From Terriglobia bacterium (lineage in GTDB: Bacteria > Acidobacteriota > Terriglobia > Bryobacterales > Bryobacteraceae): DNA of 58,747 bases. Below, one piece after another: positions 10,835-55,194 of this stretch (the stretch's first letter is position 1; each line of letters starts with the position of its first letter). The notes under the pieces were generated by a model. The model was not told the DNA's origin and ran no database searches. It saw nothing but the letters and a program-made list of their open reading frames with translations. The stretch is from assembly GCA_010084195.1 (NCBI GenBank), contig RGPS01000012.1, positions 1-58,747 on the forward strand, given 5' to 3'. The translations under genes were made by a program, and so were the position numbers.

Positions 10835-12673
10835 ATGCGTCTGTTCCCGGTAATCTTCCTTATCGCCCTGCCTGGGCTGGCCCAGACCGACTGGCCCGTG
10901 TACGGGCATGACCCCGGCGGTATGCGCCACTCGCCCCTGACCCAGATCACCCCGGCCAACGTGGCAAAACTGGAGCGAGCATGGACCTTTCATGGAGGGC
11001 GCCCCGGCTCGCAGGTCACTCCTGTCGTCATCGGAGGAGTGATGTACGTGACAGCACCTGATGCGGTGCACGCGCTGGAACCAGAAACAGGCAGGGAGCT
11101 TTGGAAATACGCCGCCCCCGGCATCACACGCCGTGGCCTCGCCTATTGGCCAGGGGCCACAGGCCTCCATCCCCGTCTGTTTGTCAGTTCCAACACTGAC
11201 TTGCTGGCGATTGACACAACGACGGGCAAACTGGCACCGGGGTTCGGCAATGAGGGCAAGATCGACATGAAGAAGGGGGTCCTGGGAGACCTGGCCGACG
11301 CGCGCTTTGCGATGCAGTCCCCGCCCGCCATTTTCAAAGACATTGTGATTACCGGCAGTAACAACAACGAACCGGCTCCCAGCCAGGGTGCCTATGGCGA
11401 CGTGCGTGGCTGGGACGCGAAAACGGGAAAACTGCTCTGGACCTTTCACACGGTTCCCCGCCCCGGAGAACCCGGCAATGAAACCTGGCCCGGCGATTCC
11501 TGGAAGAACCGCTCCGGGGTCAACAACTGGGGCTTCATGACGATTGACGTGGAGCGTGGCCTGATCTTTGTGCCGCTGGGCTGCCCCACCATTGATTTCT
11601 ACGGTGCGGACCGCCCGGGATCGGGCCTCTACGGGAATTCTCTGGTGGCGCTGGAAGCCGCCACCGGCAAGGTGAAATGGTTTCAGCAACTGGTCCACCA
11701 CGATCTTTGGGACTACGACCTGGCCGCACCCCCGGCGCTGATTGAAGCCACCATGAACGGGAAGAAAGTGCCCGCCGTTGCCCAAATCAGCAAAATGGGC
11801 ATGCTGTTCGTCTTCGAGCGAACCACGGGCCAGCCGATCTGGGGGATGGAGGAACGCAAGGTTCCCGTCAGCAAGGTTCCACGGGAGAAAAGCGCTCCCA
11901 CCCAGCCATTTCCGCTGAAACCGGAACCCCTGTCGAAAATGACCTTCACGCCGGCTGACCTCTACAATGTGACACCCGAGCACGCCGCTTTTTGCAAGGC
12001 ACTGTGGGAAAACGAGCACATGTTCACCGAGGGACCCTACACCCCCATGTCGGTGGAGGGGAACGCCTTCACCTACCCGAGCACGCTGGGCGGCGGCAAC
12101 TGGAGCGGCGTTTCCTACGACCCCAGGCTTGGCTACGTATTCACCAACATCATGAACCTGGCACAGTGGGGCCACATGGAAGAGCGCAAAGACCCAAAAA
12201 CCGGCGAGGTCACGTGGGCCAGAACTTCCTCTGCCGGGGGCACTGCCTACGGAAGATTCTGGGACCCGTCGAACCACATTCCATGCCAGAACCCACCCTT
12301 CGGCGAACTGGTAGCGGTGGACATGAAGACGGGTAATATCGCCTGGAGAACACCGCTGGGGACAGTGGAATCTCTGGAGGCAAAGGGTGTTCACAACACC
12401 GGCTCGCTGAATCTGGGCGGAAGTATCACGACCGCGGCAGGCCTGGTCTTCATCGGCGCGGCGAATGATGCCAAATTTCGGGCCTTCGACTCGAAGACCG
12501 GCAAGGAACTGTGGGCGGCCAAAATCGACGCAGTCGGGCAGGCGACGCCCATCACCTATCAGGGCAAGGATGGCCGCCAATATGTAGTCATCATGGCGGC
12601 CGGCGGGCCTTTCTGGGGCTCCCCTGGCGGGGACGCCCTGGTTGCCTTCGCACTGCCCGAGGCTGCGAAGTAG
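10835..12673 (+). CDS. PQQ-dependent dehydrogenase (quinoprotein)
   Basis: This is an exported eight-bladed quinoprotein of 612 residues for oxidation of alcohols or sugars. The signal peptide is MRLFPVIFLIALPGLAQ. The opening DWPVYGHDPGGMRHSPLTQI and repeated propeller signatures (ETGRELWKY, KTGKLLWTF, ATGKVKWF, KTGKELWAAKI) are typical. The HHDLWDYDL segment is the conserved active-site region of the membrane-type glucose dehydrogenase group. No heme motif is present, unlike the gene at the left edge. AGGAG at 10822-10826 lies inside the end of nadB and sets the ATG at 10835. The last ~90 bases are copied twice more downstream. Confidence 0.9.
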   Translation: MRLFPVIFLIALPGLAQTDWPVYGHDPGGMRHSPLTQITPANVAKLERAWTFHGGRPGSQVTPVVIGGVMYVTAPDAVHALEPETGRELWKYAAPGITRRGLAYWPGATGLHPRLFVSSNTDLLAIDTTTGKLAPGFGNEGKIDMKKGVLGDLADARFAMQSPPAIFKDIVITGSNNNEPAPSQGAYGDVRGWDAKTGKLLWTFHTVPRPGEPGNETWPGDSWKNRSGVNNWGFMTIDVERGLIFVPLGCPTIDFYGADRPGSGLYGNSLVALEAATGKVKWFQQLVHHDLWDYDLAAPPALIEATMNGKKVPAVAQISKMGMLFVFERTTGQPIWGMEERKVPVSKVPREKSAPTQPFPLKPEPLSKMTFTPADLYNVTPEHAAFCKALWENEHMFTEGPYTPMSVEGNAFTYPSTLGGGNWSGVSYDPRLGYVFTNIMNLAQWGHMEERKDPKTGEVTWARTSSAGGTAYGRFWDPSNHIPCQNPPFGELVAVDMKTGNIAWRTPLGTVESLEAKGVHNTGSLNLGGSITTAAGLVFIGAANDAKFRAFDSKTGKELWAAKIDAVGQATPITYQGKDGRQYVVIMAAGGPFWGSPGGDALVAFALPEAAK

Positions 12674-12957
12674 CTGCGGCGACGGGGGCAGAACAAGAGC
12701 GTAGGGATTTCGGCAAGCCGTAGTGATCACGGCAGCCAACGGGCCTTTCTGCATTCCCCTGGCGGGGACGCCCTGACAGCTTTCGCACGGCCCCGGGCGG
12801 CGAAGGGAATACGTCGAAGGGCGGAGAACACCCAGGCAGGGATTTCGGCAAGACGTAGTGATCATGGCGGTCGACGGACCTTCCTGGAGTCCCCTGGCGG
12901 GGACGCCCTGACAGCTTTCGCACGGCCCCGGGCGGCGAAGCAGATGCAGATCAGCTA
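12570..12957 (+). repeat. Tandem repeat of the PQQ dehydrogenase 3' end, three copies
   Basis: A segment encoding the C-terminus of the PQQ dehydrogenase recurs twice after the stop. The element GTAGT(C/G)ATCA begins at 12584, 12720 and 12855, giving periods of 136 and 135 bases. Each copy contains CCCTGGCGGGGACGCCCTG and ends near GCGAAG. Copies 2 and 3 have lost one base before CCCCTGG and carry stops, so they no longer encode the tail in one frame, although copy 3 still reads PGGDALTAF and later RAAK. Copies 2 and 3 are closer to each other than to copy 1. They fill the ~290 bases before folD. Confidence 0.85.
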
Positions 12958-12967
12958 AATTAGACTC

Positions 12968-13885
12968 GTGGCGATGATTCTTGATGGCATCCGTACCAGA
13001 GACCAGATAAAAGCCGAATGCCTGCCCCGGGCACAGGCGGTCTACAAGCACACCCGCCGCCCCCCAGGTCTGGCGGTGATATTGGTGGGGAGCAATCCTG
13101 CGTCGCAGGTCTACGTCCGAAACAAGACGAAAACGGCGGGGGAAATCGGCATCTACACGGAGACCCTCAGCCCGGACCCGTCCATCAGCACGGACGATCT
13201 GTTGCGCCTGATCCGAATTCTCAATCTGCGCAGCGAAATCGATGGCATCCTGGTGCAGCTACCTTTACCGGACCACATCGACGCCCAGAAAATCCTGCTG
13301 GCTGTGGCCCCCGAAAAAGATGTGGATGGCTTTCATCCCTACAACATGGGCCTTTTGACCACAGGGCGCGCCGGCATGCGCCCCTGCACGCCCGCAGGAG
13401 TCATCGAAATCCTGAAGAGGAACGACATCCCCATCGCGGGGCGGAACGCAGTGGTGGTTGGCCGCAGCACCATTGTGGGAAAGCCGATGGCGCTGCTATT
13501 GCTGGAAGAAAACGCCACCGTGACGGTGTGCCACTCGAAAACCGCTGATCTGCCGGGTGTGTGCCGGACGGCGGACATCCTGGTGGCTGCTATTGGCCGC
13601 CCGGCCATGGTGACGGCGGACTTCATTCGTCCCGGAGCTGTGGTGGTGGACGTGGGCATCAATTCCATCACCGACCCGCAGCAGGCAGTCGAAATCTTCG
13701 GGGCGGATAATCTGGCCACTTTTGAAAAGCGGGGTAGCCAGCTCGTTGGAGACGTGCACCCCGGCGACATGGCGCGGCTCGCGTCGGCCTACACCCCTGT
13801 GCCCGGCGGCGTAGGGCCGCTGACCATCGCGATGCTGATGCGCAACACGATTGAAGCGGCAGAACGCCGCACCGGGCTGTGCTGA
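12968..13885 (+). CDS. folD: Bifunctional methylenetetrahydrofolate dehydrogenase/cyclohydrolase
   Basis: This cytosolic enzyme interconverts 5,10-methylene-, methenyl- and 10-formyl-tetrahydrofolate with NADP. Family landmarks are present in order: VGSNPASQVYVRNK with the catalytic Lys, the QLPLPDHI segment, DVDGF, PCTPAG, the nucleotide-binding VVVGRSTIVGKP and the C-terminal PVPGGVGPLTIAML. Length (305 residues) is normal. The GTG at 12968 is used here, but the ATG at 12974 gives the more usual MILDGI start. Its end overlaps the coaE start. Confidence 0.95.
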   Translation: MAMILDGIRTRDQIKAECLPRAQAVYKHTRRPPGLAVILVGSNPASQVYVRNKTKTAGEIGIYTETLSPDPSISTDDLLRLIRILNLRSEIDGILVQLPLPDHIDAQKILLAVAPEKDVDGFHPYNMGLLTTGRAGMRPCTPAGVIEILKRNDIPIAGRNAVVVGRSTIVGKPMALLLLEENATVTVCHSKTADLPGVCRTADILVAAIGRPAMVTADFIRPGAVVVDVGINSITDPQQAVEIFGADNLATFEKRGSQLVGDVHPGDMARLASAYTPVPGGVGPLTIAMLMRNTIEAAERRTGLC

Positions 13886-14484
13886 TCGCGGGTCTCACCG
13901 GAGGCTTGGCCAGCGGCAAGAGTTTTGTGGCTGCGGTGTTTCAGGAGCTGGGAGCGTATGTTGTGGAAGCCGACGAACTCGGGCATCAGGTGCTGAGGCC
14001 GGAAGGAGCAGCCTATGCCTCGGTTCTGGAGAGCTTCGGCAGCGCGATCCTCAACCCGGATGCCTCCATCAACCGTGCAAAACTCGGCAGTCTGGTCTTC
14101 CAGGACCCCGCAGCCCTGGCGCGGCTGAACGCCATTGTCCACCCCGCCGTACACCGCCTGGCAGCGGAGCGTTTTCGGGAAATTGGAACCACGGCCACCG
14201 ATGCCGTCGTTATCTATATTGCGGCCATTTTGGTGGAGACGGGCGGTTACAGGCAGTTCCCCTGGCTGATCCTTACCAGATGCAGCCGGGAGCAACAAGT
14301 AGAACGCGCGATGCAGCGCCCCGGCGCAACAGTGGCAGATGTGGAGGCCCGGCTGGCCCGACAGCTCCCGCTGGAACAAAAGCTCGCCCTGGCCACCCAT
14401 GTCATCGACACCGGCGGTACGCTCGAAGAGACCCGGCGTCAAACTAAGATAGTGTTTGAAGACCTAAGGAAATTAGCCTCGTGA
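13879..14484 (+). CDS. coaE: Dephospho-CoA kinase
   Basis: This enzyme catalyses the last step of coenzyme A synthesis, ATP-dependent phosphorylation of dephospho-CoA. The P-loop GLTGGLASGKS is at residues 5-15, followed by EADELGHQVL (the usual DAD motif is EAD here) and the conserved LNAIVHPAV segment. At 201 residues it is of normal size. The GTG start at 13879 lies inside the last codons of folD, and its stop overlaps the GTG of the protease gene, so the three are translationally coupled. Confidence 0.92.
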   Translation: MLIAGLTGGLASGKSFVAAVFQELGAYVVEADELGHQVLRPEGAAYASVLESFGSAILNPDASINRAKLGSLVFQDPAALARLNAIVHPAVHRLAAERFREIGTTATDAVVIYIAAILVETGGYRQFPWLILTRCSREQQVERAMQRPGATVADVEARLARQLPLEQKLALATHVIDTGGTLEETRRQTKIVFEDLRKLAS

Positions 14485-15650
14485 GACCTCGCGCCCTCAT
14501 CCTGACGCTGCTTATCGCCGGAACCTTCTGGTTCCTGACCACACAAGGCAACTGGAAGCTGAAAAAGCTCCTTCAGCCGCTCACTTCGAGCGGCCAGCTT
14601 TGGTCCGAACCCGTGACCGCACGCGGTGCCAATAATTTTGATGCCGACGAGCAGAACAATATCGACCTTTACAAAACGAACCACCTGGCCACCGTCAACA
14701 TCACCAGCGTGGTCTACCAGCGGGACATGTTCTTTCAGGTCTTCCCGACGCAGGGCACCGGTTCGGGCTTCATCATCAACGATGATGGCGAGATCATCAC
14801 GAACAACCATGTAATCAACGGCTCCCGGAACATTACGGTAACGCTGTCTGACCACAAGACCTACAAGGCAGATGTCCTTGGCATTGACCGGCGCAATGAC
14901 CTGGCTCTGATCAAGATCAAGGCCGGTCGCAAATTGCCGTTTGTCCGGCTGGGCGATTCCGAAAACCTGCAGGTGGGCCAGAAGGTTCTGGCCATCGGCA
15001 ACCCGTTCGGCCTCGAAGGCACTCTCACGACAGGTATCGTCAGTTCTCTGGGCCGAAGCCTGCAGAACGAAGATGGCACAGCACTGGAAGGCCTGATTCA
15101 AACCGATGCGGCCATCAACCCGGGCAATAGCGGGGGCCCCATGTTCGATTCGAAAGGCAGCGTCATCGGGATCAACACCGCCATCTATGGTTCACAGACG
15201 CGCAGTGGAGAATCGGGGAGCATAGGCATCGGATTTGCAGTTCCGGTAAGCCGCGTGAAATCGATTCTCGAAGAGTACCGAACTACCGGCAGGATCTCTC
15301 ACCCTGTCCTGGGTGTCAGTCGCGTCCTGTTCGTGCAGGGTGATCTGGCCGAGGCGCTCAACCTGCCTGCATCCGGTGGCCTCCTGATCGAGGGTATTGA
15401 CCAGGGGTCCCCGGCAGAGGCTGCAGGCCTGCGCGGCCCCGATCGCACCGTAATTGTCGGCATGTACCGTCTGGGAGTCGGCGGAGATCTGATCACCGCA
15501 ATTGACGGGGAGCAGGTGGAGAGCCAGGATGCGTTGCGCCGCGCCATTAACCGCAAGAAAGCCGGCGAGAAAATCGACCTGACCCTGTTCCGTGGCGGGC
15601 GGTCCGTAAAAGTTCCGGTTACCCTGGGTGCTGCACCGGAGGCCTTGTAG
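14481..15650 (+). CDS. HtrA/DegP-like serine protease with one PDZ domain
   Basis: This is a periplasmic quality-control protease of 389 residues, anchored by one N-terminal membrane helix (ALILTLLIAGTFWFLTT). The trypsin-like triad is His110 (TNNHV), Asp140 (RRNDLAL) and Ser217 (NPGNSGGP). A single PDZ domain follows from about residue 270, with GLLIEGIDQGSPAEAAGL and GGDLITAIDGEQV. A DegS/HhoB-like layout with one PDZ fits better than DegP, which has two. GTG at 14481 overlaps the coaE stop. Confidence 0.92.
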   Translation: MRPRALILTLLIAGTFWFLTTQGNWKLKKLLQPLTSSGQLWSEPVTARGANNFDADEQNNIDLYKTNHLATVNITSVVYQRDMFFQVFPTQGTGSGFIINDDGEIITNNHVINGSRNITVTLSDHKTYKADVLGIDRRNDLALIKIKAGRKLPFVRLGDSENLQVGQKVLAIGNPFGLEGTLTTGIVSSLGRSLQNEDGTALEGLIQTDAAINPGNSGGPMFDSKGSVIGINTAIYGSQTRSGESGSIGIGFAVPVSRVKSILEEYRTTGRISHPVLGVSRVLFVQGDLAEALNLPASGGLLIEGIDQGSPAEAAGLRGPDRTVIVGMYRLGVGGDLITAIDGEQVESQDALRRAINRKKAGEKIDLTLFRGGRSVKVPVTLGAAPEAL

Positions 15651-47427: not shown

Positions 47428-47742
47428 CTATTTCTTGAACGTGCGGACGTAGGCGATCACGTCTTCCGGGGAACCGGCCAGGGTCGTGACGGCCTTCATT
47501 TTGCCTTTGCCTTCCTTCACCGCTTTCACCAGATCGGCATCGCTCTTGCCCAAAACCGCAGCGGAGGTAAGGTCGGGAACGCTCATGGCCTTCGCCATTG
47601 CAAGGCTGGGTATTCCAGCTGCGCCGTGGCAACCCTTACAGGATTTGTCGTAGCCCGCCTGTCCGGCCTTTGCATCCGCCCCGAATAGCGAAACACAACT
47701 GAGTGCTGTCAGCGTGGCCAGCGTCCAGATAGTTCTCTTCAT
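47428..47742 (-). CDS. Small mono-heme cytochrome c
   Basis: This is an exported c-type cytochrome of about 104 residues, last gene of the cytochrome cluster. AAGGAG before ATG 47742 fixes the start; an upstream ATG at 47760 lacks it. The signal peptide MKRTIWTLATLTALSCVSLFG precedes CKGCHGAAGIPS, the heme site. The likely axial Met is in KGKMKAVTTLAG. The C-terminal helix PEDVIAYVRTFKK is typical. It probably shuttles electrons in the periplasm to or from the conduit encoded upstream. Its own ribosome site and 26-base gap from the previous gene suggest higher expression. Confidence 0.92.
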   Translation of the reverse strand: MKRTIWTLATLTALSCVSLFGADAKAGQAGYDKSCKGCHGAAGIPSLAMAKAMSVPDLTSAAVLGKSDADLVKAVKEGKGKMKAVTTLAGSPEDVIAYVRTFKK

Positions 47743-47768
47743 TGTGTGAGACTCCTTCACTTCATCAG

Positions 47769-48875
47769 CTACTTACCTGGCGCACTATTCATGAACGCGA
47801 TCAGGTCATCCATTTCCCCCACCTTAAATACCGGCCAGGGAATATGTTCTTTTTCCATCTGACTCAGCATGGTGGGGCCATGCCGCCAGAGTCCGGAAAC
47901 CATGGTGATGCCGTTCCAGGTACCGGCTTTCGCAGAAAGCACAGGGCCGGCGCCACCACCTGCATGACAACCGACGCACCGCTTCGCTGCAAACACCTTC
48001 TTACCCCGGGCCGCGACACCGCTACCCTGGAAAAACTGAGCTGCCCAGTAATACCCCACCAGTTCGCGCATTTCTCCAGGCGCAATCGCCGGATGCTGCA
48101 TGCCTTTCATGGAGAGATGGTTCCACATAGAGGCGGCGACTGCGGTCAGTGTCATGGGCCCTGTGTTCTTCGACAGCAAGACTTTCGGATCTTTGTGGCA
48201 ACTGACACAGCCCTTCTGTGCCGCCAGTTGCGCAGCCCCCTCCGAGGCGGTAATCCGGAAAGAAGCAGGCGCATTCTTTGCCGGAGTTGAATTCCGCAGA
48301 TAGACGAGGATATCGGTCAGTTCCTGAGCCGTCATGGCAGGAAACTGCTTGTTGCGCCGCTGAAGCTCGCTCTGCATTTCGGGAGAGTGAACCCACATCG
48401 AGCTAACTACACTCACAGGATCACCGAGAGTAGTCCACTTTGACACCGGCTGAGCCTTTTCATTAACCGGAGAGGACAACCCGTGGCAGGAGGCACACGT
48501 CTTATCCGCAAACTGGTACTTACCCCGGGCCGCATCACCCGGCACATCAAAGTAGCGTGCTGAGTAAAACGACGCGAACAGGTCTGCGGCATTCTGTGGG
48601 TCCAGATCCCCCACCTTCAACCCGCGATCCCGAATCGCTTTCCACATCTGCGGCGCATGATTCCACATCGTACTCGCCAGATCTGCCGGGGAATAAGCGC
48701 GGTCCAGCACGCGCCCCAGATCATTCGCGACGATGCCGCCCGTGCCCTTCAGCTTGTGGCACTGCACACAGCCCTGGGACTGGAATAGCTTGTCACCGCG
48801 CTCTGAGTCCATCGGAAGAGTGGCCCCACTGGCTGTCAGGGCCAGCATCCCAAACAGGACGGTTATCCGTTTCAT
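47769..48875 (-). CDS. Tetraheme cytochrome made of four tandem mono-heme domains
   Basis: This is an exported protein of 368 residues with signal peptide MKRITVLFGMLALTASGA. Four heme sites are at residues 36-40 (CVQCH), 127-131 (CASCH), 223-227 (CVSCH) and 300-304 (CVGCH), about 75-95 residues apart. Each is followed ~27-32 residues later by a related motif: STMWNHAPQM, SSMWVHSPEM, ASMWNHLSM and SGLWRHGPTM. The Met is a good candidate for distal heme ligand. This is four copies of one cytochrome c fold in a chain, a molecular wire, rather than a compact multiheme. Its ATG overlaps the barrel gene's stop (ATGA), tying it to the conduit. Confidence 0.88.
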   Translation of the reverse strand: MKRITVLFGMLALTASGATLPMDSERGDKLFQSQGCVQCHKLKGTGGIVANDLGRVLDRAYSPADLASTMWNHAPQMWKAIRDRGLKVGDLDPQNAADLFASFYSARYFDVPGDAARGKYQFADKTCASCHGLSSPVNEKAQPVSKWTTLGDPVSVVSSMWVHSPEMQSELQRRNKQFPAMTAQELTDILVYLRNSTPAKNAPASFRITASEGAAQLAAQKGCVSCHKDPKVLLSKNTGPMTLTAVAASMWNHLSMKGMQHPAIAPGEMRELVGYYWAAQFFQGSGVAARGKKVFAAKRCVGCHAGGGAGPVLSAKAGTWNGITMVSGLWRHGPTMLSQMEKEHIPWPVFKVGEMDDLIAFMNSAPGK

Positions 48876-50860
48876 CGCGAAAACCTCACGCCGGTCATCA
48901 GTATGTGAGTCCGGAAAGCTTCATATAGATAGAATGTCTGGTCCAGCCCGTAATAGCGCCATTCGCCAAACAGTGCCACACGCTTCGTGACCGGAACGTT
49001 CAGCCTCGCAGTCGGCTGATAGTAAGTCGTCGGCCTGCTGCCTGCCGTCATTACCGCTGCGCCACCCGCCAGAACCTTCATCGGCACACCCTTCACCAGA
49101 CTGGGCAGATTCGCCGTCACCATCCCGGAAATAGTGTGACAATACTCGCGATATCTCGATAGCGCGGGAGCGAGAATCTGCGGCTGCAGGTAACTGATAG
49201 CCGAGTTATAGGAGCAATGCTCGTAAGATGCCTGTACATCCAGCCGTTCGCTCTTCGGCATCCAGTTTATAGAAGCAGCTTCCTGATGAACATCAAACCG
49301 ATAAGCAGCTCCCGAGTAAGGGTTCTCGTTATGAAGTTTGCGATAGTCCATCGAGAGGCGCAACGACGAAGTCAGTTTCACGTTGCCCGTTGCACGTAAT
49401 TTCTGGTAGTCATACAGGCTCGTCCGAAACCACGCCCCGGAGCCCTTGCCAACTTCAGCGTCCGCAGCTAAGCTCCACCGCGATCCGGGTCGCCAGGTAA
49501 TTCCAGCCAGGCCAACCTGGCGGTCCAGCACGGAGTAGGGCGCACCCGGCAGCCCGGCAGCCGGAATAATGGAGCCCTGTGCCGTACCCCAAACATATCG
49601 GTGCCCGGCCCGGAAAGTAATGTGTCGCGGACCCTCAACGAAGATGTTGGTTTCCACCCGACTCTCATTCGTATCCAGCAGAGATGTCGTGGAGCCCACA
49701 ACTAAGTTACCCGCAAGCGCCAGGCGATCCCGGGTCAAAGCCGAGGCATTGCTGTTCAGGCGGTCCGTCCATAAGGATTGCGTCGCTCGAAAGCGCCCCC
49801 CGGGGTGCAGGTCCCAGCCGAAGCTGGCAGACTTGTGCGGCAGATAGGAGGTGGCCGAAAGAATGCTCTGCCCCGTCGAATAGAAGAGAGCCTGGCTGAG
49901 AGCCACAAAGCTGCCGGTGGCTAACTGCTGGAAGTTCACTTCATTGCGGGGATTGGCATACATATAATGCCCGAACAAGTCCAGCCAGGAGACGGGCGAG
50001 GCCGTCGCAGTCAGGCGCGAGAAAGGTCCGTTGCCCCTCACCCCGGTAGCGCGGAGTAAGCTCGAAAGATTTATAGGCTGCCCCAGCACAGGATTCAGGT
50101 TGTTACCCGGGTTGATGCCGGTTCCGCGCGCGACATAAGAATTCATGTCGTTGCGGAAAATGCTGGCTCCCTGCTCCGCCGTCAGGTGAAATCGCCTGAG
50201 TGTCATGTGGACGCCGGCGCGCACCAGATCCGTGGCATCACGGCTTAGTTCCGGAATCGCAAATTCATTGCCGTCTGTCCGAAATGTCGACACTCCGCGC
50301 CCGGAACTGGAGTTCCGGTCATACATAACGTAAGGCGAGAACATGCGGCCATTGAAAAGCTCCAGAGCCCACGATCCCATCCGGCGTTTTGTATCGAAAG
50401 ATTGCTGATTCAGCACGAGGCCTCTCGACAGAGTCGGGTCCGCAAACGAGGGCAGGTTGTTGAAGTCAGTCAGGTTCCTGTAGTCACCCAGAAACTTGTA
50501 GATCCCGCGCTTCTCCGCAAAAATGTGGAAGGTCGACCACGGATCACCACCCCAGTCGTAGGCCCGAATCCGAAGCCGCTCAAACAAGCGCTTCTTAGGA
50601 TCCAGAATCGTGAAGTCAGTCCCGGTAAGCTTCAACCCCTCGCCAAGATTCACGATGGATCGATAGGTCGCTTCGCTGCCCGCGATGCCGGACCGCGACC
50701 GATACCCCAGTTCCATATAGCCACTGATCCAGCTTTCCGACGACGGCACCGGAGATGCCACTTCTGCTGCCGGCGCGCTCGCTGCGGCTTCAACCGGAGC
50801 CGGAGTCGCCTGCCCGAATACCGTCAGGGGAAGTAAGAATACCGCGCATAAGGTCTTCAT
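48872..50860 (-). CDS. Outer-membrane beta-barrel protein of the porin-cytochrome cluster
   Basis: This is a 662-residue exported protein with signal peptide MKTLCAVFLLPLTVFGQ and a Pro/Ala linker. The rest is a long series of amphipathic strands ending in aromatic or Arg residues (ISGYMELGYRSRSG, FSPYVMYDRNSSSG, LFGEWRYYGLDQTFYLYEAF, ILMTGVRFSR), as expected for a ~20-or-more-stranded barrel. Size and position between decaheme and tetraheme cytochrome genes fit the MtrB/PioB role of a sheath for a cytochrome. The N-terminal CXXC seen in some MtrB proteins is absent. Both ends overlap neighbours by four bases (ATGA). Confidence 0.8.
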   Translation of the reverse strand: MKTLCAVFLLPLTVFGQATPAPVEAAASAPAAEVASPVPSSESWISGYMELGYRSRSGIAGSEATYRSIVNLGEGLKLTGTDFTILDPKKRLFERLRIRAYDWGGDPWSTFHIFAEKRGIYKFLGDYRNLTDFNNLPSFADPTLSRGLVLNQQSFDTKRRMGSWALELFNGRMFSPYVMYDRNSSSGRGVSTFRTDGNEFAIPELSRDATDLVRAGVHMTLRRFHLTAEQGASIFRNDMNSYVARGTGINPGNNLNPVLGQPINLSSLLRATGVRGNGPFSRLTATASPVSWLDLFGHYMYANPRNEVNFQQLATGSFVALSQALFYSTGQSILSATSYLPHKSASFGWDLHPGGRFRATQSLWTDRLNSNASALTRDRLALAGNLVVGSTTSLLDTNESRVETNIFVEGPRHITFRAGHRYVWGTAQGSIIPAAGLPGAPYSVLDRQVGLAGITWRPGSRWSLAADAEVGKGSGAWFRTSLYDYQKLRATGNVKLTSSLRLSMDYRKLHNENPYSGAAYRFDVHQEAASINWMPKSERLDVQASYEHCSYNSAISYLQPQILAPALSRYREYCHTISGMVTANLPSLVKGVPMKVLAGGAAVMTAGSRPTTYYQPTARLNVPVTKRVALFGEWRYYGLDQTFYLYEAFRTHILMTGVRFSR

Positions 50861-51864
50861 CGCAGCAGGTTCCTGTCCGAATAACTACCGTGGATCTTCT
50901 GGTGACACACGGTGCAGTTGGCGTAGCGGGGCGAACGCAGATCATGGAACGCCGGCGGTACCACGCCCGCCTGCGACTGCCCGGCACCCGGAATATTCGC
51001 ATGACACTCCAGACAGGTAAGCCGCACTTCATGCCTGTTCAGCATTCTTGGATTGGCCGACCCGTGCGACTCATGACAAGCCCCACAGCCTTCCTGCCGC
51101 ATCGGCGCATGTTCGTAAGTAAAGGGTCCGCGCTTGTCCGTGTGGCACTTGATGCAGCCCACGTCATTCGCCGCAAACGTCTGCAGCGTAGCCGGACGCG
51201 CCGAACCATGAGGATTGTGGCAATCCACGCACGTCATCGAATTCTCGGGGACTTTATGGTGCGACGGTTTCGCAAACTGAGCCTTCGCCGAAAGGTGGCA
51301 CGAGGAACACTGCGCATTCACATCAGCAGGTGCGCGCAGGACCAGGCCAGCCGGACCTTTGGCGTGCATGGAGTGGCACGTAGTGCAGGCGACCGCACTT
51401 TTCGCGTGCCCCCCCATAATGCGCTCCGAGTGCTTCGCGGTATTGAGGTGGCAGCCAAGACAGATCTTGTCCGTCTCCACCGGCTTCAGCTTCGCAGGGT
51501 TACGAATCTCCTTTGCATCTGCGCTGCCGGCATGTGCCGCCCCCGGCCCGTGGCACGATTCACATCCATGCTCGGTCCAGCCGCCGCGCTTGTCGGTCTC
51601 CACAAAAGTGTGGGCAGATTTCCGATAGTTGTTATAGATGTCCTCATGGCACGTCTGGCATGTCTGAGAACCGGCATACTCTTCGCCAAACTGCTTCGGC
51701 GCCATACCCTCGCTTCGCTTTTTCGACGCCGTCTTCGAGGGTGCCCCTTTCGCAGAGGAGCCCTCCTGGGCGGCGCCGTACGAGAGGTACGGCGCCGTTG
51801 TCAGTAGCACGAACGCGGCCAGAGCAAGTCCCGCGCAGCGTGCCATTTGTTTAGTACTGAGCAT
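50857..51864 (-). CDS. Decaheme c-type cytochrome (MtrA/DmsE-like)
   Basis: This is an exported cytochrome of about 335 residues with ten CXXCH sites: CQTCH, CESCH, CLGCH, CTTCH, CSSCH, CVDCH, CIKCH, CGACH, CLECH and CTVCH. Ten hemes in ~335 residues matches MtrA and DmsE, the cytochromes that sit inside an outer-membrane barrel. ATG 51864 lies within the end of the upstream gene; ATG 51846 (MARCAGLALAAFVLL) is an alternative that starts right at the signal peptide. A Lys/Ser-rich linker follows the signal. The stop overlaps the barrel gene's start. Confidence 0.92.
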   Translation of the reverse strand: MLSTKQMARCAGLALAAFVLLTTAPYLSYGAAQEGSSAKGAPSKTASKKRSEGMAPKQFGEEYAGSQTCQTCHEDIYNNYRKSAHTFVETDKRGGWTEHGCESCHGPGAAHAGSADAKEIRNPAKLKPVETDKICLGCHLNTAKHSERIMGGHAKSAVACTTCHSMHAKGPAGLVLRAPADVNAQCSSCHLSAKAQFAKPSHHKVPENSMTCVDCHNPHGSARPATLQTFAANDVGCIKCHTDKRGPFTYEHAPMRQEGCGACHESHGSANPRMLNRHEVRLTCLECHANIPGAGQSQAGVVPPAFHDLRSPRYANCTVCHQKIHGSYSDRNLLR

Positions 51865-54016
51865 GCACCTTCGCGACCCCGAATTCTGCCGTGGCTTTGT
51901 GGCAGACCGTGCAGCTTTCACCAAGCTTGGGGTCTGTCTGCGAGAGTGCATGGGCTGCCGATGGGATAGCCGCATGGCATCCGGTACAGGCCGAGGTAAT
52001 GGCCCCTATCGGGCTCACCGGACCTTGCGGATCAACCACCGCGTTCTTGCCAATTGGCAGGATGCCTTCGCTGCCGCCCACATGGCACATCGCGCAGTTG
52101 CGCTTGTCGCCAGGAGCCCCCGTCGGGCTCATCGCCGGGTAACGAACTTCACCGAAATCGTTGTGCGATCCGCCGAAGCCCACTACCGTGTAGTTCCGCC
52201 CCATCGCAGCCAACTCTTCACCTGTGTGGATGCGGTGCACCATCAGGTTGAAGTTGATGCTCTGGTTCGGCAACGCTTTGTCGGCTGCGACCACAGCCCC
52301 CGGACGCCGCGCACCGTCGGTGTTCGACGGGTTGTGGCACAGGACGCAGTATTCCGTCTGGTTGCGCAGGCCACCGTGCAATGTGGTGAACTTCACGTGG
52401 CATTCTTCGCATTTAGTAGTAGCGACGACCACCCGGCGCGGAACCAGAGGAGTTCCGTCTACCGAGAAGCTGACAACCTGATTCTTCGCGCCGTACTGTA
52501 CCGACTGCTGTTTCGTCGTCCCGGGAAGGAGTATTTCGGTCCGGCGCCCTTCGACACCAATCGAGAAGCTCCCCTTCGCATTTGCGGGAATCGCGTGGAC
52601 AAAAGCGTAGGTGCAAGTCCCGTCCGCCCCGCATTTGGCTATGTTTGCAGCGGCGAGGGCACTTTCACTCACGTACCCCGGAGTGGTAACGTCGCTGCCG
52701 AAGCTCGTGTAACCGTAATCGGCAGTGGGACCCGCCATCACGAACGAGAGCGAACCAAGAGCAGACAGCGCCAGCGGCTTGTTCGCCTTGTCAAGCAGGG
52801 TGAAAGTCACAGTCGGTTTCAGACCCGCGCTTCCGTTGTCAACCTTCTTGATCGCGATATTCAGACCGGTCAGCATCGCGGAATCCTGGGGCACCATGTG
52901 CGAACCCTTGATCGAGGCATCAAAATCGATTTCGCCCTCAGGAAGATGGCATGTCGCGCAGAGATTGTCGCTCACCTGCGGCCCGCCCACGTGATTCTTG
53001 CCGCTGGCGAAGTCTACGTCGTCATGGCACGAACCGCACGCCACACGGGTCGGCTTCGTCAGGTAGTTGGCAGCCTGAGTCGCACCGGATTTCTGGTCGT
53101 GGCAGGTTTCGCAGCGCCGGACATCGGCCGGGAACCCAACGGTAGACCAATCCGCATTGCCAATCGCATACTTGCCACCCGCCTTCACACTCGGAAGTTC
53201 CTTACCCATGTGGATCTTGTGAATGAAAACCTTCATATCCACCGTGACGCCGGTCGATGACGCCGTCGTCTGCGGCTGGTGACAAATAATGCAGATCTCA
53301 ACCCCGCGCCGACGCCCACCGTGGGACGAGAGCTGGTCGTGACAACCATTGCACGAAGCCGTGCGGATCACGTCCCGAACCTTCGTCACCTTCGAGCCAT
53401 TCGGCACGAAGCTAAAAACATCGCTGGAGAAATTGTTAGGGATCCCGAAGGCAGTCATGTTCCGCGAACTATAGACACCAATCGTGTGGGTCGCATTTGC
53501 ATCGAAACCAGTCGGTGCCTTAGCCCTGAAAACGTATTGATAACGTCCCGATTCGAGCTGGGTCAGCACGCCCCCGGTGTCCGCAGCAGCGCGACCGAAT
53601 GTGCCCGCAGCACCTGTCGCCGTCGTCGTGATGTACGAACTGTACTGATCCGAATTCGCCGGAATCACGCCGATGATGTAGCTCACCGTGAGAGGGCCGG
53701 GGGTGTAGACTCCCGGGATATCAAGAGGCAGACCCACCGGATCTTTTACTGTATAGACGACCGTAATGGTGCCATCCGCCGCGAGGGTGCCGGATTCGAT
53801 CTTCGTGACCAGCCCCGGCCTCAGAAAATTAATCATCACCTGACTCAGGTACGCCGCCTTATCGTGAAGACCGTAGGGCGAACTGCCCGACTTCGCTCCA
53901 GTCATAGGAACGGTAAGGGCAGCAGCCAAAATCACAGCCGGAACAATTCGCAGCTTGCCCGAACCCGTTGCCCCGTCTTTCGAAAACTGCGCTGTCAATA
54001 GCCTTGGAAGTGTCAT
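51851..54016 (-). CDS. Decaheme outer-surface cytochrome (OmcA/MtrC family)
   Basis: This is a 721-residue exported cytochrome, first gene of the cluster. Ten CXXCH sites fall in two groups of five: CNGCH, CIICH, CETCH, CGSCH, CATCH, then CEECH, CVLCH, CAMCH, CTGCH, CTVCH. A beta-rich domain precedes each group, exactly the four-domain MtrC plan. The second beta domain has a close Cys pair (KCGADGTC), similar in place to the MtrC disulfide. The N-terminus is a long signal peptide (LRIVPAVILAAALTVPMTGA) without a lipobox Cys, so it is not a lipoprotein as MtrC is. GGAG at 54029-54026 precedes ATG 54016, inside a small hairpin. Confidence 0.92.
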   Translation of the reverse strand: MTLPRLLTAQFSKDGATGSGKLRIVPAVILAAALTVPMTGAKSGSSPYGLHDKAAYLSQVMINFLRPGLVTKIESGTLAADGTITVVYTVKDPVGLPLDIPGVYTPGPLTVSYIIGVIPANSDQYSSYITTTATGAAGTFGRAAADTGGVLTQLESGRYQYVFRAKAPTGFDANATHTIGVYSSRNMTAFGIPNNFSSDVFSFVPNGSKVTKVRDVIRTASCNGCHDQLSSHGGRRRGVEICIICHQPQTTASSTGVTVDMKVFIHKIHMGKELPSVKAGGKYAIGNADWSTVGFPADVRRCETCHDQKSGATQAANYLTKPTRVACGSCHDDVDFASGKNHVGGPQVSDNLCATCHLPEGEIDFDASIKGSHMVPQDSAMLTGLNIAIKKVDNGSAGLKPTVTFTLLDKANKPLALSALGSLSFVMAGPTADYGYTSFGSDVTTPGYVSESALAAANIAKCGADGTCTYAFVHAIPANAKGSFSIGVEGRRTEILLPGTTKQQSVQYGAKNQVVSFSVDGTPLVPRRVVVATTKCEECHVKFTTLHGGLRNQTEYCVLCHNPSNTDGARRPGAVVAADKALPNQSINFNLMVHRIHTGEELAAMGRNYTVVGFGGSHNDFGEVRYPAMSPTGAPGDKRNCAMCHVGGSEGILPIGKNAVVDPQGPVSPIGAITSACTGCHAAIPSAAHALSQTDPKLGESCTVCHKATAEFGVAKVHAQY

Positions 54017-54037: not shown

Positions 54038-54291
54038 TGGCGTAGTAGCAGCCGGATGGCCAAACTACGTCGTCACAAGAGATGCCCGCTTTTGCCTCAC
54101 AATACAGACCTTCCACCCCGAAGGTTCGGCATCCTTGCCACGCCTCCCTCGCGTGCTCTGTCGGGAATGGCGCACCCGCCAGGCAGCGTTCTGCGCCACA
54201 TGGCGCAATCGCCCTCCAGCCCCCGGAGGCAGACCCGCCCCGGAATTGGCATCCAACGTGCACTTCCCATGGGCGAAAAAGGAGATTCCCC

Positions 54292-55194
54292 ATGAGATTC
54301 CGCAACATCCTCTTCCCGGTAGATTTCTCCGCACGCAGCCACGCTGCGGTCCCGCATGTCCGGGCCATGGCGGAGCACTTTGGCGCGTCCGTAACCCTGC
54401 TGCACGTCGTCGAAGGCCCTGCGTCCTGGGCAGCCGCCAGTGATGGTGGCTACTTCGTCGAATTCGACCTGCCTCGCATGATGAAGGACGCAGATGAGCG
54501 CCTCGCCGCCTTTGCCGCCGTCGATTTTCCGGCGGCGTCTCCCAACAGCACCAGCGTGACCCGCATGGTCGAACAGGGTGACCCCGGCACCGCTATCGCG
54601 GAACTCGCCCAGGCCTGGCACAGCGACCTCATCATGCTGCCGACCCACGGCAGGGGGGCCTTCCGCTCGGCCCTCCTCGGCTCTACCACCGCGAAGGTCC
54701 TGCACGACGCCCACTGCGCCGTCTGGACCGGAGCGCATCTGGAAGACGCCACGCTCCCCAGCCATACCTCCATCCACACCGTGATGTGTTCCCTCGACCT
54801 GGACGAGGGAAGCCTCGATCTCCTGAAAGGTACCGCCCACTTCGCCGACGCGTGGAAGGCCAACGGCTACATTGTGCACTCCGTACCGGGCACCGATACT
54901 CGTCCCGACATGTACTTCGACCAGCCCCTGGAAGCATTTCTCAAAGACAACGCCCGCAAGGCCATCGCGAAACTCCAGATGGAGGCCGGCACGTCCTTCG
55001 GTGTCTGCCTCGAAGCTGGTAACGTCGCCGATGTCGTTCATGACGCCGCCACTCACCACAAAGCAGACATGGTGGTCATCGGGCGAGGCACCATCAACCG
55101 TTTCGCGGGCCGCCTGCGCACGCATGCCTACGGGATCATCCGCGACGCAGGTTGCCCGGTCCTTAGTCTTCCGCCGCGCGAACTGGTCTTCTAA
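54292..55194 (+). CDS. Tandem universal stress protein (two UspA domains)
   Basis: This is a cytosolic protein of 300 residues with two Usp folds. The first starts RNILFPVDFSARSHAAVPHV and contains the segment MLPTHGRGAFRSALLGSTTAK, close to the ATP-binding GxxG...S/T motif. The second, from about residue 165, ends VVIGRGTINRFAGRLRTHAYG and keeps the same pattern less strictly. AGGAGA precedes ATG 54292. It diverges from the cytochrome cluster across a shared 275-base region, so it may share control with it. Confidence 0.88.
   Translation: MRFRNILFPVDFSARSHAAVPHVRAMAEHFGASVTLLHVVEGPASWAAASDGGYFVEFDLPRMMKDADERLAAFAAVDFPAASPNSTSVTRMVEQGDPGTAIAELAQAWHSDLIMLPTHGRGAFRSALLGSTTAKVLHDAHCAVWTGAHLEDATLPSHTSIHTVMCSLDLDEGSLDLLKGTAHFADAWKANGYIVHSVPGTDTRPDMYFDQPLEAFLKDNARKAIAKLQMEAGTSFGVCLEAGNVADVVHDAATHHKADMVVIGRGTINRFAGRLRTHAYGIIRDAGCPVLSLPPRELVF

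Follow-up and report, generated by a model that had tools for sequence, protein, structure and literature searches.

A Group 5-type MtrCAB conduit in a Bryobacteraceae genome and a candidate ImcH-type partner at the inner membrane

Introduction

Does a compact run of multiheme cytochrome genes around a beta-barrel gene in a Bryobacteraceae genome encode a conduit for electrons across the outer membrane, and, if so, which inner-membrane component might it be wired to and in which direction would the electrons flow? The locus lies in the window, by which we mean the whole 58,747-nucleotide stretch that was analyzed (contig C14 of a 6.5 Mb genome in 628 contigs); the nearest matches among named genomes are metagenome-assembled genomes of Bryobacterales and Acidobacteriia. 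Decaheme genes had already been noted in Acidobacteria by 2013 (PMC3669403). More recently, Baker et al., who define MtrCAB clusters by the adjacency of mtrC, mtrA, and mtrB, delineated a Group 5 that, in the part of their account devoted to it, comprises only Bryobacterales and unclassified Acidobacteriia, with a predicted periplasmic tetraheme cytochrome immediately downstream of mtrB in every member and no nearby quinone oxidoreductase of the inner membrane in any (Baker et al. 2022, PMC8805035).

Results

Gene content of the cluster

The features of the locus are as follows:

51851..54016, minus strand: mtrC, OmcA/MtrC-family decaheme cytochrome of 721 aa, predicted outer-face terminal cytochrome (TIGR03507, PDB matches)
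50857..51864, minus strand: mtrA, DmsE/MtrA-family decaheme cytochrome (TIGR03508; PDB 6R2Q chain A)
48872..50860, minus strand: mtrB, outer-membrane beta-barrel of 662 aa, predicted MtrA sheath (PF11854; fold match 6R2Q_B)
47769..48875, minus strand: tetraheme cytochrome of four tandem class I domains (PF13442/PF00034)
47428..47760, minus strand: class I monoheme cytochrome, likely start ATG at 47742 (PF13442)
54193..55194, plus strand: two-domain universal stress protein, divergent from mtrC (PF00582)

All five minus-strand genes of the preliminary description were thus recovered as ORFs at 47428-54016, and a recount returned the same 10, 10, 0, 4, and 1 CXXCH motifs along them, the motif-free member being the barrel, with its length of 662 aa upheld. 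Of the 167 ORFs in the window that reach 100 aa, none but cytochromes of this cluster has as many as four CXXCH motifs; with shuffled copies of the four cytochromes yielding a mean of 0.0005 to 0.09 such motifs per copy, the CXXCH content of the cluster is far above chance. The reported overlaps of 14, 4, and 4 bases at the mtrC/mtrA, mtrA/mtrB, and mtrB/tetraheme junctions also hold, the first of them provided that Met38 of the longest mtrA ORF (position 51864) is taken as the start. The longest ORF itself starts at 51975 and would overlap mtrC by 125 bases; we placed the start at Met38 because a close relative (L003) has the same 14-base arrangement. The tetraheme and monoheme genes are separated by a gap, of 8 bases when counted from a GTG start and 26 from the likely ATG.

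The decaheme cytochromes and the barrel

MtrC is recognized by TIGR03507 with 486 bits (cut-off 209), and its sequence matches in the PDB are MtrF and MtrC; MtrA is recognized by TIGR03508 with 238 bits (cut-off 192) and has chain A of 6R2Q, the solved Mtr complex, as a PDB match (E 3.5e-34). Exactly 20 Cys and 20 His are conserved at 90% or more both among the MtrC homologues (n=68) and among those of MtrA (n=55), as expected of decahemes in which ten haems would each be held by a predicted pair of histidines. The MtrC of Shewanella is a lipoprotein, held by a lipid anchor. A lipobox was absent from 71 of the 72 MtrC sequences scanned, and the window MtrC has no Cys before residue 222; hence, we do not file it as a Shewanella-type lipoprotein and infer that docking on MtrAB, in place of a lipid anchor, probably keeps it attached to the cell.

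The barrel gives 24.1 bits with PF11854, just above the cut-off of 23, falls below that of the narrower NCBIfam model TIGR03509 (12.1 bits versus 240), and had no phmmer match among PDB sequences. Its link to MtrB came only from fold comparison: the best PDB fold match of its AlphaFold model (about 26-27 strands, pLDDT 71) is the MtrB chain 6R2Q_B (E 1.5e-16, TM 0.64), although the two are only 12% identical over the structural alignment. Other barrels among the matches listed reach a TM of at most 0.46, and the next E is 4.8e-8. The possibility raised at the outset, that this protein might model as a narrow, unrelated porin, is ruled out as far as the predicted structure goes, since MtrB of 6R2Q is its best fold match by a wide margin.

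The class I cytochromes

The tetraheme protein had been called chain-like, a label that has to be given up, for the protein is in fact built of four class I cytochrome c domains in tandem. Across its 27 homologues, every domain retains a W-x-H motif. Domains 1, 2, and 4, but not domain 3, also have an invariant Met at a place consistent with the usual axial ligand. These ligands were read from the sequence alone, the AlphaFold model, made from seven sequences, being too poor for the purpose (pLDDT 61, with nothing significant in a fold search). The monoheme protein conserves one His and one Met across 18 homologues, which is consistent with His/Met ligation, and its gene varies in position in related loci, lying either upstream or downstream. 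Class I cytochromes with such ligands are usually of high potential.

Spread, synteny, and relationship to Group 5

MtrC proved to be common in the family, which is new here: it scores above the cut-off in 112 of 150 family genomes, as well as in 43 of the 297 genomes drawn from the phylum. The order mtrC-mtrA-mtrB-tetraheme is conserved among related loci, with mtrC adjoining mtrAB in 36 of 37 and the tetraheme gene lying directly downstream of mtrB in 27 of 37; a want of conserved synteny, which the preliminary description had named as evidence against a conduit, is therefore not what the relatives display. Together, the family models, the conserved Cys and His, the barrel fold, and the synteny make the reading of the locus as an MtrCAB-type outer-membrane electron conduit in an acidobacterial genome, as first suggested, well supported. 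The further suggestion of a link to other cells finds no support in our analysis.

The window locus bears the marks of Group 5 as set out in the published description: mtrC, mtrA, and mtrB are clustered in a Bryobacterales host, the tetraheme gene immediately follows mtrB, and no inner-membrane quinone enzyme lies beside the cluster (Baker et al. 2022, PMC8805035). By that description, it is a further member of the group and its tetraheme cytochrome is the Group 5 tetraheme. Accordingly, while the tetraheme and monoheme genes do lie after mtrB, the tetraheme gene is no addition to a known set but a hallmark already in the Group 5 account, and we have dropped the notion of a new type of five-gene cluster. 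The locus departs from the group as described there in the monoheme gene that follows the tetraheme gene, and many of its relatives depart further in carrying an ImcH-type quinol oxidase in the cluster. As a separate observation, three related loci (L006, L043, and L060) have a tandem pair of mtrC copies, whereas the Group 5 description of Baker et al. (PMC8805035) reports no mtrC duplication.

An ImcH-type protein as candidate inner-membrane partner

The genes flanking the window cluster yielded no quinone enzyme. A search of the whole genome for the NapC/NirT family returned one match, on another contig (C2, 83318-84736). It is a protein of 472 aa with an N-terminal hydrophobic region, four hydropathy windows of which two abut, one CX3CH and five CX2CH motifs, and profile matches only to NapC/NrfH-type models. 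The published hallmarks of ImcH are three N-terminal transmembrane helices, a CX3CH motif beside them, and 5-9 CX2CH motifs (Zhong and Shi 2018, PMC6295460), by which we assign the protein as putatively ImcH-type; hydropathy and motif scans predicted at least three transmembrane segments, a CX3CH, and at least five CX2CH in 12 of the 12 ImcH-type proteins examined. Compared by description, it resembles the ImcH of Geobacter in its N-terminal transmembrane helices, adjoining CX3CH, and at least five CX2CH motifs, and differs in having five of the latter rather than six.

Directly beside this gene is one for a monoheme cytochrome that is 46% identical to that of the window. Moreover, an ImcH-type homologue lies inside or beside mtrCAB in at least 11 of 37 related loci, including those of two genomes of the same genus (L033 in G124 and L034 in G142), and L033 has the order mtrC-mtrA-mtrB-tetraheme-ImcH-type-monoheme. 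Nine clusters contain both an ImcH-type and a monoheme gene, and in eight of them the two are immediate neighbors. Such clusters are absent from the open-access literature that we searched and are unlike the imcH loci surveyed by Zhong and Shi, who found no adjacent mtrAB or mtoAB (PMC6295460).

In one genome (G064), the ImcH-type protein (L059, 4517-7150) is fused to a C-terminal stretch with 12 more CXXCH motifs, 17 in all, and its gene sits between mtrA and mtrC. Two NrfD proteins were also seen in the genome of the window.

Co-occurrence of MtrC and ImcH-type proteins

Across the 150 family genomes, among the matches listed, an ImcH-type protein is found in 107 of the 112 genomes with MtrC versus 9 of the 38 without it (odds ratio 69, Fisher p 4e-18). 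Because relatedness and incomplete genomes could inflate such an association, we ran a control with the barrel of a second MtrAB-like pair, which in the same 150 genomes proved to be unassociated with MtrC (odds ratio 1.07, p 1.0). Where only some genomes of a genus have MtrC, it and the ImcH-type protein are mostly present or absent together: seven such genera (g5, g25, g35, g36, g55, g64, and g71) are fully concordant and six (g1, g19, g24, g53, g61, and g73) are not. At least 29 genomes carry the ImcH-type gene no more than 10 kb from mtrC or the tetraheme gene, proximity counts here being lower bounds drawn from fragmented contigs and one draw of genomes.

In the draw from the phylum, ImcH-type proteins are found, among the matches listed, in 40 of 43 genomes with MtrC versus 86 of 254 without it; an ImcH-type gene is adjacent to mtrC in one of these genomes (G281) and near it in three others (G157, G434, and G247). 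Given the 86 genomes that have an ImcH-type protein without MtrC, these proteins must also have other partners.

The second MtrAB-like pair, located in the genome of the window (G000, contig C626, about 11750-14651; L083), is without an MtrC of its own and combines a DmsE-family decaheme cytochrome (TIGR03508, 265 bits) with a 675-aa barrel. The latter has no Pfam or NCBIfam match and is conserved in 112 of the 150 family genomes, many of which are without MtrC.

Discussion

From these observations we infer how the complex is assembled, the route that electrons take through it, their direction, and the acceptor. Quinol would be oxidized at the inner membrane by the ImcH-type protein, which would pass electrons to the monoheme and tetraheme cytochromes as periplasmic carriers; these would deliver them to MtrA, threaded through the MtrB barrel, from which they would reach MtrC on the outer face and finally an acceptor outside the cell, for example Fe(III), Mn(IV), or humics. 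We hold it probable that the locus is a Group 5 conduit with an ImcH-type inner-membrane partner and that the net flow is most likely outward; the outward direction is favored because ImcH has so far been implicated only in the oxidation of quinol for outward transfer (PMC6295460).

The putative His/Met ligation of the accessory cytochromes would also permit inward flow. On that alternative, which resembles what is proposed for the Mto and Pio systems, electrons taken up by MtrC, whether from Fe(II), from minerals, or from other cells, would be handed on to a terminal oxidase by the tetraheme and monoheme cytochromes. It would be in keeping with the class I type and conserved Met of both accessory cytochromes, features common among oxidase donors, with the high potentials usual for their kind, and with the reversibility in principle of Mtr conduits (PMC6295460). 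However, MtrC co-occurs and clusters with a protein whose family is tied to outward transfer, and the genes that flank the cluster in the window include no oxidase or Fe(II)-oxidation gene that we noticed, and we regard an inward conduit as unlikely. A still less likely explanation, to which we give little credence, is that the conduit is real but unwired to the ImcH-type protein, the two being common genes of extracellular electron transfer and respiration that happen to co-occur in the family. This would account for the 9 family and 86 phylum genomes with an ImcH-type protein but no MtrC and for the separate contigs that carry the ImcH-type gene and mtrCAB in the genome of the window. In most relatives, too, no ImcH-type gene lies within 10 kb, a point against the main reading, although fragmented contigs hide some such neighbors. 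The unwired alternative sits poorly with the physical clustering within that distance in at least 29 genomes, with the repeated concordance within genera, matched by no such association of the control gene, and with the monoheme gene that so regularly adjoins the ImcH-type gene.

The outward conduit with an ImcH-type partner would combine elements of several known systems. Its MtrC and MtrA belong to families homologous to those of the Shewanella MtrCAB, and its barrel resembles MtrB. It differs from the Shewanella system with CymA in that MtrC is without a lipobox, no CymA-like protein is nearby, class I cytochromes replace the periplasmic carriers, and the barrel sequence is strongly diverged. 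The MtoABD and PioABC conduits of Fe(II) oxidation comprise an MtrA-type decaheme in an MtrB-type barrel and a small carrier protein, a plan that recurs here, though with an OmcA/MtrC decaheme in addition and a likely partner at the inner membrane that is ImcH-type. We lean toward the view that Acidobacteriota have a hybrid chain, in which a Geobacter-type ImcH is joined to a Shewanella-type MtrCAB through high-potential class I cytochromes. If so, it would fill in the inner-membrane half that Group 5 has lacked and would place imcH in a cluster with mtrCAB, an arrangement not found by Zhong and Shi 2018 (PMC6295460). In any event, the ImcH-type link offers a specific candidate for the inner-membrane step that the Group 5 model, as presented in the published description, leaves open (PMC8805035).

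About three in four of the family genomes sampled encode an OmcA/MtrC cytochrome; provided that the conduit works in the direction of export, bacteria of this family would widely share the trait of extracellular respiration. Bacteria of the Bryobacteraceae type are common in soil and peat.

The universal stress protein at 54193-55194 is a possible candidate regulator as part of a conserved neighborhood, with homologues near mtrC in four related loci (L004, L005, L033, and L034). Another (L084, 8907-9770), 40% identical to the one beside mtrC, flanks the ImcH-type gene on C2 on the side opposite the monoheme gene. That mtrCAB and the distant ImcH-type gene each have such a paralogue as a neighbor could point to common regulation.
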